From assembly GCA_026417175.1 (NCBI GenBank), contig JAOADT010000017.1:1-47996 (forward strand): a stretch of DNA of 47,996 bases. The letters run 5' to 3'. Numbering within the stretch: position 1 is the stretch's first letter; each line of letters begins with the position of its first letter. Below, in pieces: positions 32,467-47,996 of this stretch. The notes under the pieces are model-generated. The model had not been told where the DNA came from and made no database searches. It saw only the letters and a program-made list of their open reading frames with translations. The DNA comes from Deltaproteobacteria bacterium (lineage in GTDB: Bacteria; Desulfobacterota; Syntrophorhabdia; Syntrophorhabdales; JANXAF01). A program made the position numbers and the translations under genes.

Positions 32467-33236
32467 TGTTAAAGGTAAGGGATTTACATTTCAGACATAA
32501 AGAGGGATCAATAGATGTACTGAAAGGTATAAGCTTTAATGCACCAAGAGGAACGATCACATCCATTCTTGGGCCAAATGGCTCTGGAAAGACAACACTT
32601 TTCAAATGCATAAGTGGACTTTGGAAAGCTCAAAAGGGTGAAATCACTTTCGATGAAAAGCCTGTGACTAGACTTTCTCCGAAAGCGCGAGCAAAGATAT
32701 TTTCTATTGTTTTTCAGGATCACCAGCCATCATTTCCTTTTAGCGTTATAGACGTTGTTCTTCTTGGTCGGACAAGTTACATAGGGGTTTTTTCGGTACC
32801 CAGCTTAAAAGATTACGAGATAGCATCAAGTGCAATAAGTACAGTGGGAATAGAGTCTCTTAGAGATACCCCATATACCCAAATAAGTGGGGGTGAGCGT
32901 CAACTTACTTTGATTGCAAGGGCCTTGGCTCAAGACGCGCCCTGTATGCTCCTTGACGAACCTACAAGTCACCTAGATTTTAGAAATCAAATAGAGATTT
33001 TAAAAAAAGTGAGGGAACTTGCTCTTCGAAAAAACCTTGCAGTACTGATCACACTTCACGATCCCAATCTTGCTATGCTTTTTTCAGACAGGGTAATAGT
33101 TATCAATTCTGGGATGAAAGTGGCTGAAGGAAACCCTAAAGAAGTGATAAACGAAGAGATGATGAAAAGAGTCTATAAAATAGACGTGAATATTATCTCA
33201 TCGGGTGAAAATAAAATGGTGTATCCTAGAACTTAA
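32466..33236 (+). CDS. ABC transporter ATP-binding protein (FepC/BtuD type)
   Basis: The 256-residue ATPase powers the metal-chelate importer. Walker A GPNGSGKTTL lies near residue 37, the Q-loop (IVFQDHQPSFPF) near 80, the signature SGGERQLTLIARALAQ near 141, Walker B MLLDEPTSHLDF near 161 and the H-loop (ITLHDPNLA) near 195. All catalytic residues are present. It overlaps the permease gene by one base and ends 10 bases before the chelatase gene, so transport and chelatase genes are one transcript. Confidence 0.93.
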   Translation: MLKVRDLHFRHKEGSIDVLKGISFNAPRGTITSILGPNGSGKTTLFKCISGLWKAQKGEITFDEKPVTRLSPKARAKIFSIVFQDHQPSFPFSVIDVVLLGRTSYIGVFSVPSLKDYEIASSAISTVGIESLRDTPYTQISGGERQLTLIARALAQDAPCMLLDEPTSHLDFRNQIEILKKVRELALRKNLAVLITLHDPNLAMLFSDRVIVINSGMKVAEGNPKEVINEEMMKRVYKIDVNIISSGENKMVYPRT

Positions 33237-33246
33237 GGGGGCTTAC

Positions 33247-35628
33247 ATGGTCAAGCTTGTGGCAGTCGTATGGCAGAGTTACTATAACATCCTTCACCGC
33301 GCGTCAAAAAATATAAAGGAGTTTCCAATAACTGTCTACTCCGCGAGGGTAGTTGATCAGAACCCGGATTGTTTAGAGACTCTGTTGAGAGATATGGATA
33401 ATGCGGATATCCTCTTTCTTTACAGATCAAGTGAAGCCTGCTGGGATCAGATCGAGAAAGAAATCAACACAAGAAAACTGAAATCTAAAATCATTTGCCT
33501 TGGACATGACCCCTCATACTGGACTCTCTCAAATGTGGATCCCCAAATTTTGGCAATGACATATAGGTATCTTACCTTTAATGGCGAAAAAAATATAACC
33601 AACATGTTCTTATTTTTAGCTTCTAGTTTGTTCGGACTTAAAATCCCGTACGAAGAACCAGAATATGTTCCATATGAGGGTCTTTATCATCCGAGGGCTA
33701 AGAAAATTTTTAATAATGTGGCAGATTACCTTAACTGGTATGTTCCAAAAAATGCTCCCACAATTGGGATTATCTTCTCGAGACATTACTGGGTAAATAA
33801 GAACACAGAGGTGGAGGATTTCCTAATCAGTGAATTGGAGAAAAAAGGATTTAACGTCATCTCAGGGTTTGGGTACTCCATAAAAGATGAGAGTTTAAAT
33901 ACGAAAGGAACAGATGAACTCATCCTCGAGTGGTTTGTTGATGAGCGCGGAAAATCGAGAATTGATCTTTTGGTAAAACTCATCTCCTTTTTTTTGGGTG
34001 CAAGTCGGGAAAGAAAAATAGAAAATACGGATACTGCCTCATCCGGAGTTAAAATTCTAAAGAAGCTGAACGTTCCTGTGATTTCTCCTCTGGGGTCGTA
34101 TTATATGACTTTGGATGAGTGGAAAGAAAAGGAATTAGGCATGGATATAGCTTGGAGTGTGGCGCTTCCAGAATTTGAAGGAGTAATAGAGCCAGTTTTT
34201 ATCTCTGCGCAGAAAGAGAGCGATGAATTTGAAAGGAGAAAATCGCCAGTTGAGGAAAGGATAAAAAAACTCGCTGATAGAATTTCAAGGTGGATAGAGC
34301 TAAAAAGAACTCCAGTGAGAGAGAGAAAGGTAGTGTTGGTTCTTCACAACAATCCATGTGCATCAGTGGAAGCAACAGTTGGTTCCGCAGCGCATCTTGA
34401 CAGTCTAGAAAGCGTCGCTCAAATCTTAAAAAGTCTAAAGGAAGTAGGCTATGACGTAAACCCACCGGAAAATGGGAAAGTCCTCATCGATCTCATAATG
34501 TCAAAAAAAGCCATATCGGAGTTCAGATGGACACCTATTGAAGAAATAGTAGAGAAGGGCGGTGCACTAGCTCTAATCGAGAAAGATAAATATTTAGAAT
34601 GGTTTGACGAGCTTCCTGATAAGACTAAGACACGAATGGTTGAGTCATGGGGAGAGCCTCCGGGAGAATACAAAAATGGCATTCCACCCGCAATGCTTTA
34701 CAACGGAAAGATCGTGATAACAGGAGTAAGCTTTGGAAACGCACTTGTTATGGTCCAGCCCAAAAGGGGCTGTGCGGGCTCCCGTTGCGATGGTCAAGTC
34801 TGTAGAATCCTCCACGATCCTGACACCCCTCCTCCCCACCACTATCTTGCCACTTATAGGTGGATATCGCGGGAATATAGGGCACATGTGGTAATCCATG
34901 TGGGTACGCACGGAAATCTAGAATTTTTGCCTGGAAAAGGTGTGGGTCTTTCAGAGTCATGTTTGCCAGATATCGCCATAGATACGGTTCCGCACCTGTA
35001 CATATACAATGCTGATAACCCACCTGAGGGAACCATTGCGAAAAGGCGAAGTTATGCGGTTCTTATAGATCATATGCAAACCGTGCTAAAAGAAGGGGGC
35101 CTCTATAGTGAGCTTTCAGAACTTGACAGGTTACTTCTAGAATATCAGGAAGCACAGAATAAAGAGCCAGCTCGGATTCATGTTCTAGAACACATGATAA
35201 TAGACACACTATTTAGAGCCAATCTTCACAAAGAAATCATGGTTAACTTTGATGGTAAGAGAGTTTTTCTGGATAAGCTTTCGCACGAAGATCTACATCG
35301 CATAAACTTTTCTGAGATCATAAGCGAAATACATGGTAAGCTCTCCCTTATAAGGAACACCCAGATCCAGGACGGAATGCACATCTTTGGGTGCTTGCCC
35401 GAAGGAGAAAGAAAAGTTAACCTCATCTATTCCATTATGCGTTACGACGCGGGAAGCAGAGTATCACTAAGACAGGAGGTGGCGAAAATTCTCGGTTATG
35501 ATCTTTCAGATTTAATATCGAACCCAGAGAAAGTGGATAAAAAAAGCGGGAAATCCTATGGAGCCATTTTGGAAGACATAGATAGACTTGGAAAAGAGAT
35601 TATAAGAGGAGTATTAATGGAGGGATAA
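33247..35628 (+). CDS. cobN: CobN-like chelatase, N-terminal portion (split gene)
   Basis: The 793-residue product matches the first 60% of CobN/BchH-type chelatases. Marks: a Gly/His motif HVVIHVGTHGNLEFLPGKG near residue 549, preceded by QPKRGCAGSRCDGQVC near 505-518 and HDPDTPPPHHYLATYRWI. The three-cysteine loop CxxxxCxxxxC replaces the shorter loop of aerobic CobN and could bind metal or an Fe-S cluster. I start at ATG 33247 after AAGGGGG; a longer reading from 33205 lies inside the ATPase gene. It ends GVLMEG and a second gene, two bases on, supplies the rest. The chelatase inserts or removes a metal in a tetrapyrrole with the ChlI/ChlD-type ATPases downstream. Confidence 0.86.
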   Translation: MVKLVAVVWQSYYNILHRASKNIKEFPITVYSARVVDQNPDCLETLLRDMDNADILFLYRSSEACWDQIEKEINTRKLKSKIICLGHDPSYWTLSNVDPQILAMTYRYLTFNGEKNITNMFLFLASSLFGLKIPYEEPEYVPYEGLYHPRAKKIFNNVADYLNWYVPKNAPTIGIIFSRHYWVNKNTEVEDFLISELEKKGFNVISGFGYSIKDESLNTKGTDELILEWFVDERGKSRIDLLVKLISFFLGASRERKIENTDTASSGVKILKKLNVPVISPLGSYYMTLDEWKEKELGMDIAWSVALPEFEGVIEPVFISAQKESDEFERRKSPVEERIKKLADRISRWIELKRTPVRERKVVLVLHNNPCASVEATVGSAAHLDSLESVAQILKSLKEVGYDVNPPENGKVLIDLIMSKKAISEFRWTPIEEIVEKGGALALIEKDKYLEWFDELPDKTKTRMVESWGEPPGEYKNGIPPAMLYNGKIVITGVSFGNALVMVQPKRGCAGSRCDGQVCRILHDPDTPPPHHYLATYRWISREYRAHVVIHVGTHGNLEFLPGKGVGLSESCLPDIAIDTVPHLYIYNADNPPEGTIAKRRSYAVLIDHMQTVLKEGGLYSELSELDRLLLEYQEAQNKEPARIHVLEHMIIDTLFRANLHKEIMVNFDGKRVFLDKLSHEDLHRINFSEIISEIHGKLSLIRNTQIQDGMHIFGCLPEGERKVNLIYSIMRYDAGSRVSLRQEVAKILGYDLSDLISNPEKVDKKSGKSYGAILEDIDRLGKEIIRGVLMEG

Positions 35629-35630
35629 GG

Positions 35631-37100
35631 ATGGACTTCTTAGAAAGGATAGACTGGAACGATCCAAACTGGAAGGAAATAAAAAATAGAATACTTGAGC
35701 TGGACAAAAAAATCAGAGAATCAAAAGAGATCGATTCTTTAATCAATGCGCTATCTGGGGGTTATGTTCCTGCCGGTCCCTCAGGCCTCATAACCCGTGG
35801 GGGTGAGGACGTTTTGCCGACAGGAAGGAATTTTTACTCCCTTGATCCCCTAAAAGTACCCACTCCAAGCGCTTACGAAGTTGGAAAAGCTCTCGCGGAC
35901 AAGCTTCTACGAAAATATCTTGATGAGGAAGGCCGTTACCCCGAAAATGTGGCAATTTACTGGCAGTGTTCTGACATTATGTGGGCTCAAGGAGAAGGCA
36001 TGGGACAGATTCTCTCTTTACTTGGTGTAAGACCCATCTGGCTTAGCAATGGTAGAATAAATGGTTTTGAAGTAATTCCAGTATCCAAACTTAAGAGGCC
36101 AAGAATCGATGTGACCATAAGGGTGTCGGGCATCACAAGAGACAATTTTCCCATGTGCATAGAACTCCTAGATGAAGCCATCCAGGAAGTCGCTAGACTC
36201 GATGAGCCGGAAGATTTAAATTTTGTGAGAAAACATGCGCTTGAACAACTTTCCCACAATGGGGGAGATCTCCGCTCTGCTACTTTAAGGATCTTTTGCT
36301 CTATGCCTGGTACTTACCAGGCAGGCACCCAGCTTGCGGTATACGCATCTGCATGGAAAGAAGAAAAAGATCTGGCAGAGGTTTTTCTTTACTGGAACGG
36401 ATATGCATACGGTAAAGGAATATGGGGTGAAAAAAAACACAAAGAATTGGCCAACGTCTTAAAAAGCGTTGACCTGACCTATAACAAGGTAGTTTCAGAT
36501 GAGTACGATCTTTTTGGGTGCTGTTGCTATTTCGGCGCCCATGGAGGAATAACCGTAGCTGCTAGATCTCTAAGTGGCAAAGACGTCAAGACCTATTACG
36601 GCGATACCAGAAATCCCGAACATGTGGATGTGAGAAGCCTGTCAGATGAGATAAGAAGGATTGTGAGAACTAAATTGCTAAATCCCAAATGGATAGAAGG
36701 AATGAAAAGACATGGCTACAAAGGTGCTTCTGACATTTCAAAAAGGATAGGGAGGGTATACGGCTGGGAAGCTACTACAAAAGAAGTTGACGACTGGATC
36801 TTCGATGAAATCACGAAAACTTTTCTTTTAGACGCGGAAAATCGGAGATTTTTCGAGGAGCACAATCCTTATGCCATGGAAGAGATTGCGCGAAGATTAC
36901 TTGAGGCTATGGAAAGGGGGCTTTGGAATCCGGCAGAGGATGTAAAAGAGGCACTCAAATCCTTGTATCTTGAAATCGAGGGATGGATCGAAGAGAAAAT
37001 GGGTGATACGAAAGGCCACTTTCAGGGAGGAAGCATAGATGTGATAACTAAAGAAGAAATTGAGCACTGGAAGCAGAAGATGCGGGAGGTAATGGGATGA
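35631..37100 (+). CDS. cobN: CobN-like chelatase, C-terminal portion (split gene)
   Basis: The 489-residue product matches the last third of Cob[32 protein letters not shown] near residues 45-75, [44 protein letters not shown] near 107-135, and [18 protein letters not shown] near 293-310, plus [16 protein letters not shown]. Full-length CobN is one chain of roughly 1,250-1,400 residues; here 793 plus 489 gives 1,282, so nothing seems lost. GGAGGGATAAGG before ATG 35631 is a strong ribosome binding site overlapping the first gene's stop. This looks like a stable, coupled gene fission rather than a fresh break. The end overlaps the ChlI-like gene (ATGA). Confidence 0.86.
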
Positions 37101-43641: not shown

Positions 43642-46600
43642 ATGCCAACTATTTACGATAATCTAGAACAAAACTTATTGGACGGACTCAAAATGGCTTT
43701 GGAAGATGCGGTTTCCGCCAGTATTTGTGTGGCATATTTTCATTTACGTGGCTGGAAAGAACTTGCAGATCTTATAGAGGACTTTTCCGGCCAAGGCGAT
43801 TCATCTTGCCGCATCTTGGTGGGTATGCATCGACCACCTGAAGAGGCGATGCGCGAAATACAGGGAGTACTTCCTCGGCCGGGTATTGATGGAGCTCGGT
43901 TATTCCAGCTTAAGCGTCAAATTACAGAAAGCTTTAAACATCAACTCGAATTCGGAGTTCCCTCAGCAGAAGCAGAAATGACACTTCGGAAGCTTTTTAA
44001 GCAACTGCGTTCCGGCAAAGTTCGGGTGAAATCGTATCTTCGCCATCCCCTTCACGCAAAGCTATATCTGATTCAACGGAAAGACCCTATAGCTCCGCTC
44101 ATCGCTTTTTTGGGTAGTAGCAATTTGACCTATCCCGGTCTTACCGGACAGGGTGAACTTAATGTGGATGTCGTAGACCAGGATGCAGCAAACAAGCTTC
44201 TTTTATGGTTTGAGAAATTTTGGAATGATCAATTCGCTATTGACCTCACAGAGGAGCTTGCTCAGCTCATAGAGCAAAGCTGGGTCTTGCAAGAAAATGT
44301 GCGTCCCTACCTCGTCTATTTGAAAATGGCTTATTACTTAAGCCAAGAGGCTCGCCAGGGCGAGCGGGAGTTCAAGCTTCCAAAAATCTTCGAAAAGAAA
44401 GGTACACCGCTTTTAGATTTTCAAACAAAAGCTGTGTCCCTGGCAGCCCATCATCTATATCGTCGAGGAGGAGCATTGCTCGGAGATGTGGTAGGACTTG
44501 GCAAGACGTTCATGGCCATTGCCATAGCACGCATTCTTCAAGAGGATGATAATTCGAATACACTCATCATTTGTCCCCCTAAACTCAAGCAAATGTGGGA
44601 ATGGTATGTGGAGCAGTATGAGATTCTCGGGAAAGTCCTTTCGCTTGGGGAGGTTATCGATACACTGCCATACCTTCCTCGATTCCGGCTTCTGATCATC
44701 GATGAAAGCCATAATTTTAGGAATCGCGAAGGAAAACGTTACCGAGCGATTCAGGAATACATCGAGCTTAACGAACCGCGTGTCCTGCTCCTTACAGCAA
44801 CTCCTTATAACAAACATTTTGAAGATCTAAGCAACCAGCTACGCCTTTTTCTGGACGAAGATCAGGATCTGAAAATACGCCCCGAGCGTTTTTTTCGTCA
44901 ATGGATCGAGCAAGGAAAAACTGAGTGGGACTTTCGTGCCCAATATCAGACTTTGCCCACCTCCCTTAGGGCTTTTGAGAAAAGTACATATCCCGAAGAC
45001 TGGCGCGATCTTATGAGGCTTTTTTTGGTACGAAGGACACGCCATTTTATTATGCGACATTACGCTCGGTTCGATGAGTCAAAGAGACGTTATTACGTAA
45101 TGCTAAATAATGAGCCTTTTTATTTTCCGGTTCGCAAGCCACGGACAGTAACGTTTTTTACTGATAAAAATAATCCTGAAGACCAGTACTCAAAACTTTT
45201 CAGCGAAAGGGTCGTTCAAGTTATCGAAACGCTTAACCTTCCAAGATATGGACTAGCCCGCTACCTCATTGATGGTGCTGAGCAAAAGGCCAACACAGAA
45301 GAAAAACGTGTTATAGCAAACCTTACACGGGCCGGTCGCCGACTTATTGGTTTTTGTAGGACTAACCTCTTCAAGAGGCTAGAGTCTAGCGGACATAGTT
45401 TCATACTCTCCCTTAAAAGGCACATCCTGCGCAACCTTGTGGTACTTTACGCATTAGAAAAAGGTAGGGACATTCCGATTGGTTTACAAAACGTTGTCTT
45501 TATGGATACAGCGGTGTCTGATGAAGATACTGAGGTTTTAGATGAGGAACTTGAAAACCTGAAACCCGAAATAGAGACCACCCCACTTTTGTCATCGAGC
45601 TTAAGCTTGCTCAATAAGGAAGCAGAAAAAGTCTATGAGTTATACTCCTCTCCTTCTTACCGTTTGCGCTTTCAATGGCTAGGAAGTAGGTTCTTTACAA
45701 CCACTTTAAAAGATCATCTAAGGGAAGACATAGAGGCTTTGATCAACATATTACAAGAGGTTGGCGACTGGCGACCGGAATCAGACGAAAAGCTTAAAAA
45801 ACTTTATGATCTTATAACGTCTTCCCATCCTGAAGAAAAGCTTCTTGTCTTCACTCAGTTTGCAGATACTGCCCGATACTTAGGAGAAGAACTTAAGAAG
45901 AGAAATATCCAAGACTTTGATATTGTGACTTCTGGAAATGCAGATCCGGTCGGATTAGCCCGGCGTTTCAGTCCTCAGACAAATGGTGGACTACGTCCGG
46001 GTGAAACAGAGCTACGGATCCTCATTGCTACAGACGTTCTCGCCGAAGGACAAAATCTCCAAGATTGCCACATTGTTGTAAACTACGATCTTCCCTGGGC
46101 TATTATCCGCCTAATTCAGCGGGCAGGGCGTGTAGACCGCATTGGACAGAGGCACGATACGATCCTTGTTTATTCTTTTTTGCCTGCAGAAGGGGTTGAA
46201 CGCGTAATCCGTCTCCGTAAGCGGCTTTTTGAGCGCCTAAAGATGAACCAAGAAGTAATAGGAACTGACGAATCTTTCTTCGGAGAGGAAGCGGCAGCTC
46301 GATTGCGTGATCTCTATACGGAAAAAGCCGGGGTCTTAGATGACGACGAAGGCGATGAGGATATAGACCTCTCAAGTCTGGCGTTGCAGGTATGGACAAG
46401 TGCTCTGGAAGCAGACCGTAAAGCAGCGCTTTCTTTGCCTCAGCTTGTTTCTACAACAGCCCCTGTTGAGGGTGAGCGATTTCCAGGTATGATCGCATAT
46501 CTTAGCTTTCCTGACGGCACAGACGCTTTGGTGCAGGTGGATGAAAATGGAGAGCTTATCTCGCAGTCCCTTTCGGCCATCTTTCAAGCAGCAGCTTGCG

Positions 46601-46749
46601 CTCCTGATACTCTCTCTCTACCTCGCGCAGAAAATCACTACGATCTTATCCGCCGGTGTGTGGAACTCGCTCTCCAGGAACGACAAATGCTTGGCGGGCA
46701 ACTTGGCTCTCTTTGGTCAATATCAGCCGAAAAGTTTATGAGCGGTTGA
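43642..46749 (+). CDS. PLD-domain/SNF2 helicase, C-terminus lost to a frameshift
   Basis: The 1,035-residue product starts with a phospholipase-D-like nuclease domain: H138 and K140 in HPLHAKLYL and GSSN (158-161), a single HxK motif of the PLD_2 type. A SNF2 helicase follows: GDVVGLGKTF near residue 281, DESHNFRNREG near 354, LLTATPYN near 381, then VFTQFADTARYLGEEL, ATDVLAEGQNLQ near 793 and LIQRAGRVDRIGQ near 825. The frame ends SAEKFMSG at 46747-46749, but the coding pattern goes on in another frame to 47030, so the true protein is probably ~1,130 residues. Helicase plus methylase gene is typical of anti-phage restriction systems. Arginine is mostly CGN, unlike the rest of the window. The intact helicase core leaves activity possible. 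Confidence 0.85.
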   Translation: MPTIYDNLEQNLLDGLKMALEDAVSASICVAYFHLRGWKELADLIEDFSGQGDSSCRILVGMHRPPEEAMREIQGVLPRPGIDGARLFQLKRQITESFKHQLEFGVPSAEAEMTLRKLFKQLRSGKVRVKSYLRHPLHAKLYLIQRKDPIAPLIAFLGSSNLTYPGLTGQGELNVDVVDQDAANKLLLWFEKFWNDQFAIDLTEELAQLIEQSWVLQENVRPYLVYLKMAYYLSQEARQGEREFKLPKIFEKKGTPLLDFQTKAVSLAAHHLYRRGGALLGDVVGLGKTFMAIAIARILQEDDNSNTLIICPPKLKQMWEWYVEQYEILGKVLSLGEVIDTLPYLPRFRLLIIDESHNFRNREGKRYRAIQEYIELNEPRVLLLTATPYNKHFEDLSNQLRLFLDEDQDLKIRPERFFRQWIEQGKTEWDFRAQYQTLPTSLRAFEKSTYPEDWRDLMRLFLVRRTRHFIMRHYARFDESKRRYYVMLNNEPFYFPVRKPRTVTFFTDKNNPEDQYSKLFSERVVQVIETLNLPRYGLARYLIDGAEQKANTEEKRVIANLTRAGRRLIGFCRTNLFKRLESSGHSFILSLKRHILRNLVVLYALEKGRDIPIGLQNVVFMDTAVSDEDTEVLDEELENLKPEIETTPLLSSSLSLLNKEAEKVYELYSSPSYRLRFQWLGSRFFTTTLKDHLREDIEALINILQEVGDWRPESDEKLKKLYDLITSSHPEEKLLVFTQFADTARYLGEELKKRNIQDFDIVTSGNADPVGLARRFSPQTNGGLRPGETELRILIATDVLAEGQNLQDCHIVVNYDLPWAIIRLIQRAGRVDRIGQRHDTILVYSFLPAEGVERVIRLRKRLFERLKMNQEVIGTDESFFGEEAAARLRDLYTEKAGVLDDDEGDEDIDLSSLALQVWTSALEADRKAALSLPQLVSTTAPVEGERFPGMIAYLSFPDGTDALVQVDENGELISQSLSAIFQAAACAPDTLSLPRAENHYDLIRRCVELALQERQMLGGQLGSLWSISAEKFMSG

Positions 46750-47030
46750 GTGCCTTTTGTCAGCGTTTGACAAGTACAACATCCATTGATTCCGCCTTGC
46801 TTACCCAGTTAGACCAGGCAATCGATCTTATCTTTCGTTATCCTTTAAAACAATCGGCCCGTGAGGCTCTGGGACGCCAGATCCGGCTGGGAATCACAGA
46901 CGATGAGTTGGCTCAAATGGTCATCCAGCGCGCCCGCGAAGAACGACTCTGTGAAATAAGTGAAAAAGAACCGATACCCGAAGAACCGCAGGTTATCTGT
47001 GCCTTGGGACTGAGAAGAATGGAGACCTAG
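46722..47030 (+). pseudogene. Out-of-frame C-terminal end of the helicase
   Basis: This stretch, in a different frame from the helicase, reads on from KVYERLSAFCQRL to LRRMET and stops at 47028-47030, three bases before the methylase ATG. It has no ribosome binding site or convincing start, is rich in charged residues (REALGRQIRLGITDDELAQM) and has the same CGN-rich codon style. It is best read as the last ~100 residues of the helicase, displaced by a small indel between about 46700 and 46725. A sequencing or assembly error would look the same. Confidence 0.7.
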
Positions 47031-47033
47031 CAG

Positions 47034-47996
47034 ATGTCGGAATTACTAAAAAGAATAGAGGAAAGCCTTCTGGAGGCACTCAAGAACAATGAGCCTCTTT
47101 TTACACTTCGTAGTCTTTTTACGGAGGTTTTATTCTGGGACGAATTACGGGCCAGCCCATTCAACATTCGGATCGGCCCTCCTTTAAACACTGATCTTAC
47201 TTTCTACTCACTTGCTCAGGCCGGTGGGTTAGCAGTTTTTCTCGTAGAATGGGTGGAAAAAGGTTTACCGGGCATTACTGCTCGTAGGGCCGTTCACAGG
47301 ATACTTTCTAACACTTATGCTGAACACCTTCTTTGTTATTTGTCCTCTGAGCGAGATGAACTCGCTTTTGTCTGGGCCAAGCGCCGTCCTCAGGGAAAGA
47401 CTGAGATGCGAACTCTCCGCTATGAGGTAGATTCACCGGCACGAACGACAGTAGAACGTCTCGCCCACCTTTACATCCCGTTAGAAGACAGGATGAAACA
47501 TTTGACTGGGCATCTGCCGATCACCTTTGTGGTTGAGAAACTTGACGACGCCTTTAGCGTCGAGGCCGTAACGGCGAAGTTCTTCGAAGACTATCGAATA
47601 GTTTTTAACCATCTCCAGAGGTTTCCTTATGAAAGATTCGGGGATAAAAAGTGGGCCCACGATTACTCTTTACAGCTTCTCAACCGTTTAATGTTCCTTT
47701 ATTTCATTCAGCGCAAAAAATGGCTTGGAGGAAATCCCCGTTTCATAGCTGAGTTTTGGCAAACCTACAAAGATTCCAATCAGCTCACTGACAGCTTCTT
47801 CGATCGCTGGCTTTCGGTAATGTTTTTTGAAGCATTCAACAATAGATTTCACGGTGGGTACACATACTTTCCAGAAAAGATACGCTTTGCACTTCAGATG
47901 GCGCCCTACCTTAATGGTGGTCTTTTTACGCGAAACTGGCTGGATAATAAATTTAGAGTCACAATACCTGATGAGTTTTTCGAATTACTCTTTGAC
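47034..47996 (+). CDS. Eco57I/type IIG-like DNA methylase, N-terminal part (cut by window edge)
   Basis: The frame from ATG 47034 is open to the end of the window (321 residues). It shows the N-terminal region typical of large restriction-modification methylases (Eco57I, PglX and DrmMI type): LLNRLMFLYFIQRKKWLGG near residues 216-234, SVMFFEAFNNR near 261 and YLNGGLFTRNW near 295. The catalytic NPPY motif is expected beyond the edge and is not seen, so methylase activity is inferred. It starts 3 bases after the helicase remnant, so the two are one operon. Of 26 arginine codons, 18 are CGN, unlike the CDF gene at 26635 (4 of 12). Confidence 0.72.
   Translation, partial: MSELLKRIEESLLEALKNNEPLFTLRSLFTEVLFWDELRASPFNIRIGPPLNTDLTFYSLAQAGGLAVFLVEWVEKGLPGITARRAVHRILSNTYAEHLLCYLSSERDELAFVWAKRRPQGKTEMRTLRYEVDSPARTTVERLAHLYIPLEDRMKHLTGHLPITFVVEKLDDAFSVEAVTAKFFEDYRIVFNHLQRFPYERFGDKKWAHDYSLQLLNRLMFLYFIQRKKWLGGNPRFIAEFWQTYKDSNQLTDSFFDRWLSVMFFEAFNNRFHGGYTYFPEKIRFALQMAPYLNGGLFTRNWLDNKFRVTIPDEFFELLFD

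Follow-up and report, generated by a model that had tools for sequence, protein, structure and literature searches.

The locus at the contig end

The window analysed here, a stretch of 47,996 nucleotides, is one whole contig (C8; JAOADT010000017.1) of the 2.1-Mb, 96% complete assembly of a Deltaproteobacteria bacterium (GCA_026417175.1). At its right edge it carries two adjoining genes that we read as a candidate restriction-modification system, namely a gene for a nuclease fused to a SNF2-type helicase and the 5' part of a gene for an adenine-specific DNA methyltransferase (methylase). Position 47996 is the true contig end. The features of the locus are the following.

43642-46749, + strand: HKD(PLD)-SNF2 helicase-nuclease gene, frame-1 open reading frame (ORF) of 1035 aa; homology runs to ~46707 and the last ~13 codons are off-frame
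43720-44223, + strand: PLD-like nuclease domain, residues 27-194 (Pfam, motif)
44053-44061, + strand: the sole HxK, H138-A-K140, followed by GSSN (motif inspection)
44482-46149, + strand: SNF2/SF2 motor core, from motif I GDVVGLGKT (281-289) through Helicase_C to motif VI QRAGRVDRIGQ (to 836)
46708-46730, + strand: frame lesion, where homology passes from frame 1 to frame 3 (net ~1 base)
46731-47030, + strand: displaced C-terminal part of the helicase gene, frame 3, with the stop TAG at 47028-47030
47034-47996, + strand: type IIG-like adenine-specific DNA methyltransferase, 5' part, 321 codons, cut by the contig end
47100-47489, + strand: methylase N-terminal domain, ~residues 23-152, common to Eco57I-like and MmeI-like methylases; proposed helicase-docking domain

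The Pfam search of the 1035-aa ORF gave PLDc_2 at residues 27-194 (2.1e-11), the N-terminal PLD domain of RE_NgoFVII, SNF2-rel_dom and Helicase_C (2.8e-16). The motor motifs GDVVGLGKT, DESH, TATPYN and QRAGRVDRIGQ are near-invariant among 21 full-length homologues, and nearly all relatives retain the HxK. One HKD per chain is the arrangement of BfiI and CglI, in which a single active site forms from two subunits (PMC5737866). The best model for the motors of the window and of two related loci (L008 and L009) is PADLOC 'HKD+Snf2' (PDLC01075, C3a139). The GC content of the cassette region is 45.8%, against 39.7% (standard deviation 2.0) in equal-sized windows upstream, and this fits a recent acquisition.

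The methylase ATG at 47034 stands three bases past the helicase stop, and the 321-residue fragment, which corresponds to the N-terminal third of the relatives' methylases, matches the PADLOC type IIG model PDLC03628 (3.3e-17). It is 36% identical, over 349 aligned positions, to the intact methylase of the closest full-length relative (G605), in which the DPxCGSG and NPPY motifs stand at 511 and 742, so that in the window copy they would lie past the contig end. A search of the source assembly with a homologous methylase and the Eco57I family did not find the rest of the gene; the sole Eco57I-family match, on contig C1, was rejected as the missing part, being a small separate methylase-like protein. 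The first-pass annotation, made from the letters and their ORFs, had described a single protein joining an HxK nuclease to a SNF2 motor, followed three bases after its remnant end by a type IIG- or PglX-like methylase and cut by the right edge, and each of these points agrees with the domains, the resumption of homology in frame 3 up to the real stop, the model match and the contig end found here.

A frame lesion in the helicase gene

The lesion was mapped by tblastn of homologues against positions 46201-47060 of the window. With all 18 non-actinobacterial homologues two collinear segments were obtained, one in frame 1 to ~46707 and the other in frame 3 from ~46731, while the reading frame of every one of these homologues is uninterrupted across the site. 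The second segment was not seen with five actinobacterial homologues, whose tails are too diverged. Over 96 aa, the displaced tail has 51% identity with the end of the closest intact helicase (G605). A closer relative, 83% identical (locus L003, from the Acidobacteria metagenome-assembled genome SKYB104), ends at residue 417, before the lesion site, and is uninformative on the origin of the lesion.

Since none of the 18 homologues changes frame there, the motor gene of the window is either defective, by mutation, or mis-sequenced, by an assembly error; programmed frameshifting was dropped for the same reason. A genuine lesion would probably leave the window copy without restriction activity.

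Relatives and the pairing of the two genes

The HKD-SNF2 family is present in 11 of 395 genomes of the window's phylum (its own genome included) and in 40 of 386 genomes of a cyanobacterial sample (the phylum of a Phormidium genome), being common in the latter and rarer in the former. Its plasmid members include Pelobacter pPRO1, Anabaena pANACY.05, Synechocystis pSYSX and pSyn7338-2, plasmids of Picosynechococcus and Dolichospermum and, among the Actinobacteria, plasmids of Rhodococcus, Microbacterium, Paenarthrobacter, Pseudarthrobacter and Gordonia. The two-gene type is found repeatedly across several bacterial phyla, both on plasmids and in chromosomes; the phages and viral contigs searched gave distant helicases only. 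The two proteins are annotated merely as 'helicase-related protein' and 'DNA methyltransferase'.

A methylase gene or its remnant adjoins the helicase gene in all 55 relatives with enough flank. In a first set, the next large gene 3' of the helicase is a methylase or a clear remnant of one in 21 of the 21 loci with a readable 3' flank. In a second set, in which L100 duplicates L019 and L086 is too short to judge, the methylase lies downstream in 29 loci; in the remaining five it is found upstream in the same orientation, in some of them fragmented. No third conserved partner gene was found across the relatives' loci. The intact relatives (pSYSX, pPRO1, the actinobacterial plasmids and the G605 chromosome) are two-gene cassettes, sometimes with unrelated cargo between the genes, in line with the alternative offered by the first-pass annotation, in which two genes form a system of their own.

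The closest full-length relative, G605, is chromosomal; its helicase is 64% identical to that of the window and overlaps by 4 bp its methylase, which carries DPACGSG and NPPY. Its cassette is flanked by phosphoglucose isomerase and NADH-dehydrogenase-type genes, and no other defence gene was recognised around it. The pSYSX helicase is 46% identical to that of the window, and the pSYSX pair lies close together on one strand, the helicase gene having the locus tag SGL_RS01585 and the methylase gene SGL_RS01600. The helicase ORF has stayed intact on two actinobacterial plasmids whose adjoining methylase is truncated or interrupted by IS3, a pattern that would be expected if the methylase must recognise the site for cutting to occur.

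In the Dolichospermum copy L014 (7001-11209) the nuclease motif is degenerate, HxD replacing HxK, and the methylase is reduced to a 285-aa remnant.

The helicase-methylase junction often holds toxin-antitoxin-like modules (PIN/VapC, ParE-like with HTH, zeta toxin, MNT-HEPN, DUF4258/DUF2283, Phd-PIN), and in other cases DUF29, Uma2 or YhcG genes. Such cargo lies at L009:12487-13120, L013:10473-11106, L019:10484-11114, L035:5555-6169, L038:4146-4957 and L041:8273-8767, and also in L093, L095, L101 and L107; the modules were apparently acquired several times. Beside the pSYSX cassette (L009:16438-19545) stand a DUF2513 gene and a multiubiquitin/E2/ThiF cluster.

The N-terminal domain of the methylase follows the helicase

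The methylases of the system form an Eco57I-like set (cyanobacteria, pPRO1, the window's phylum, G605) and an MmeI-like set (Actinobacteria), whose N-terminal ~130 residues are homologous to each other (hhalign E 1.7e-21); the window N-domain alone aligns with the Eco57I-like set at 1.3e-12. The MmeI_N nuclease domain was not detected in the actinobacterial MmeI-like methylases (L017).

Helicase and methylase identities were compared by Mantel tests over 28 Eco57I-like helicase-methylase pairs. Methylase residues 1-145 correlate with the helicase at r 0.84 (0 of 999 permutations), while the catalytic and recognition parts reach r 0.42-0.60 (0.49 at 641-830 and 0.42 at 831-1000). With the catalytic core held constant, the N-domain keeps a partial correlation of 0.78, while the core keeps 0.10 when the N-domain is held constant. 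Between pSYSX and pSyn7338-2, the helicases are 97% identical, the N-domains 74%, the cores 26% and the recognition regions 16%. This closer tracking of the helicase by the N-terminal ~145 methylase residues, as read from the alignments, is what is new here. Considering that the other parts follow the helicase less, and that Eco57I-like and MmeI-like versions both occur, these data suggest that the N-terminus is a docking domain with exchangeable catalytic and recognition parts behind it.

A kinship of this N-domain with proteins beside distant HKD-SNF2 genes (L004-L006) was unsupported (probability <3%). In two of these loci, both cyanobacterial (L004:2692-9885 and L005:2688-9884), a gene for a ~2397-aa protein lies directly upstream of the distant HKD-SNF2 gene; in the L004 protein, sigma-70 regions 1.2-4 were recognised, along with a weak AAA match close to the C-terminal part.

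A proposed split, ATP-dependent restriction-modification system

What can be read directly from the sequence, namely the domain and motif anatomy, the constant pairing of the two genes, the lack of any other conserved partner, the lesion and the truncation, supports the hypothesis that the locus is a copy, damaged and cut by the contig end, of a split ATP-dependent restriction-modification system encoded by two genes (probability about 0.7). Gene 1 would encode the restriction subunit, in which a SNF2-type DNA translocase is fused to an N-terminal HKD (PLD) nuclease with a single HxK. Gene 2 would encode a type IIG-like gamma adenine methylase that recognises its target through a part of its own.

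Docking, translocation, dimerisation and cleavage are steps that we infer for such a machine. An asymmetric one-strand mark is used by Type III and BREX systems, and translocation occurs also in Type ISP enzymes (PMC12707154); from the likeness of the mark we derive a model in which the methylase directs the loading, ATP drives the translocation and HKD domains pair. The methylase would find an asymmetric site and methylate one adenine. At an unmodified site, it would pass the DNA to the helicase protein, docked at the N-terminal domain of the methylase, and ATP would then power translocation. Cleavage would take place once two HKD domains meet, and two engaged complexes would likely be needed, because a single-HKD protomer must dimerise to form an active site.

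Several points weigh against this reading. The window methylase has neither catalytic nor recognition parts, these being lost at the contig end. The correlation between N-domain and helicase could come in part from linkage, the N-terminal end being nearest to the helicase gene; the single locus with swapped order and a full methylase does not separate docking from linkage, although gaps between helicase and methylase that reach 2.3 kb speak against linkage by itself. AlphaFold models of the helicase and the methylase N-part, with pLDDT scores of 38-39, were unusable and were not used. In the literature searched, no published functional description of the pair as one system was found.

The architecture itself is already catalogued, since PADLOC holds both 'HKD+Snf2' and type IIG models, separately. 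The cassette represented by 'HKD+Snf2' and the pSYSX type IIG-labelled methylase has the same domain order as the window, where the adjacent methylase also has the common N-domain; a VapBC-like pair lies between the genes on pSYSX, whereas the window has none. We regard as possible, at somewhat less than even odds, that these loci form a distinct unnamed class in which an N-terminal methylase adaptor docks an HKD-SNF2 translocase, Eco57I-like and MmeI-like cartridges are exchanged for specificity, and the junction collects toxin-antitoxin modules. If true, this adaptor-and-cartridge pattern would be natural specificity switching in restriction systems.

Comparison with known systems and rival explanations

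HKD nucleases driven by a helicase-like ATPase are known, as here, from SauUSI (PMC7913695) and from CglI/NgoAVII (PMC5737866). SauUSI, however, reads methylated sites through an SRA-type domain, CglI consists of a PLD-B3 protein and a separate Z1 helicase, and neither has such a methylase partner. The Type ISP enzymes LlaGI and LlaBIII (PMC4666363) likewise combine a nuclease, a motor, a methylase and target recognition, and act at asymmetric sites, but as a single polypeptide with an Mrr-type nuclease, whereas here there are two genes and an HKD nuclease.

The methylase could instead be a self-sufficient type IIG enzyme that both cuts and methylates, the HKD-SNF2 protein being an accessory or a separate nuclease. 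In PADLOC the relatives' methylases carry a type IIG label, that of pSYSX being REase_MTase_IIG, which counts in favour of such an enzyme, and type IIG enzymes have an N-terminal cleavage domain (PMC3874165). In the alignment of relatives, however, the N-domain shows no conserved D...(E/Q)xK pattern or PD-(D/E)XK triad, and at a place where AQKRG or AEKKG is common the window reads AQAGG; the constant presence of the methylase or its remnant beside the helicase (55/55) speaks against independent enzymes. We consider this explanation unlikely.

Equally unlikely is a BREX-like phage exclusion without site-linked cutting, in which the HKD domain would act on replication intermediates only or not at all. 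The methylase core resembles BrxX/PglX, and the methylation mark of BREX, too, is placed on a single strand at an asymmetric site (PMC12707154). Against it stands the retention of the HxK in nearly all relatives, the HxD exception (L014) having a mere methylase remnant.

An HKD-endoDNase placed N-terminal to a Swi2/Snf2 helicase and accompanied by an N6 methylase, as here, has been described as the effector of the DUF499-centred Type-2 BREX-related (Hma-like) systems (PMC12839542), and HmaA models match the motor weakly. These systems are, however, built around a DUF499 ATPase. DUF499, PglZ and DUF1998/MZB (DrmB) proteins are absent from the source assembly, in which BrxC was not searched separately, and neither DUF499 nor PglZ is annotated in the relatives' neighbourhoods; membership of this type is very improbable.

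Least probable of all, and hardly credible, is the class 1 DISARM fragment (DrmD and DrmMI, with drmA, drmB and drmC past the contig end) put forward by the first-pass annotation: a SNF2-like helicase beside an adenine methylase is indeed common to both, the motor matches DrmD models (PADLOC 2.7e-37, NCBIfam 1.8e-40) and the relatives' methylases match DrmMI models weakly, but the motor scores 139 bits against the NCBIfam DrmD equivalog cut-off of 610, its nuclease is fused to it, and the intact relatives, whose flanks, unlike that of the window copy, can be read past the methylase, have no neighbouring drm genes. The search against defence-system models suggested by that annotation thus returned matches for both proteins ('HKD+Snf2' and PDLC03628), with DrmD below its cut-off.

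DISARM, BREX and DUF499-centred systems each fail here on a defining feature that was tested. The locus may still function like a split Type ISP or BREX-related enzyme.

The pSYSX methylase and GAm6AGGC

The methylase M.Ssp6803IV, which marks GAm6AGGC, is located on pSYSX (PMC7296061, PMC6604393), and slr6095, being M.Ssp6803V, is distinct from it (PMC6560206). Over pSYSX 1-100,000, the cassette methylase is the only annotated DNA methylase besides slr6095. By elimination, and on the word of secondary papers, the cassette methylase would therefore be M.Ssp6803IV. As slr6049 lies at 47 kb on pSYSX, directly ahead of it (PMC4963859), it would by numbering be slr6050. The PADLOC type IIG model (REase_MTase_IIG) covers this methylase end to end with 2662 bits, and is built on it or on a nearly identical protein. 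If the two proteins work as one machine, a restriction barrier of Synechocystis 6803 would have as its recognition site the methylation motif already measured there.

Another split gene in the window

At positions 33205-37100 of the window, CobN is found in two ORFs three bases apart (profile positions 1-654 and 676-1088), which is possibly a second lesion or a natural split.

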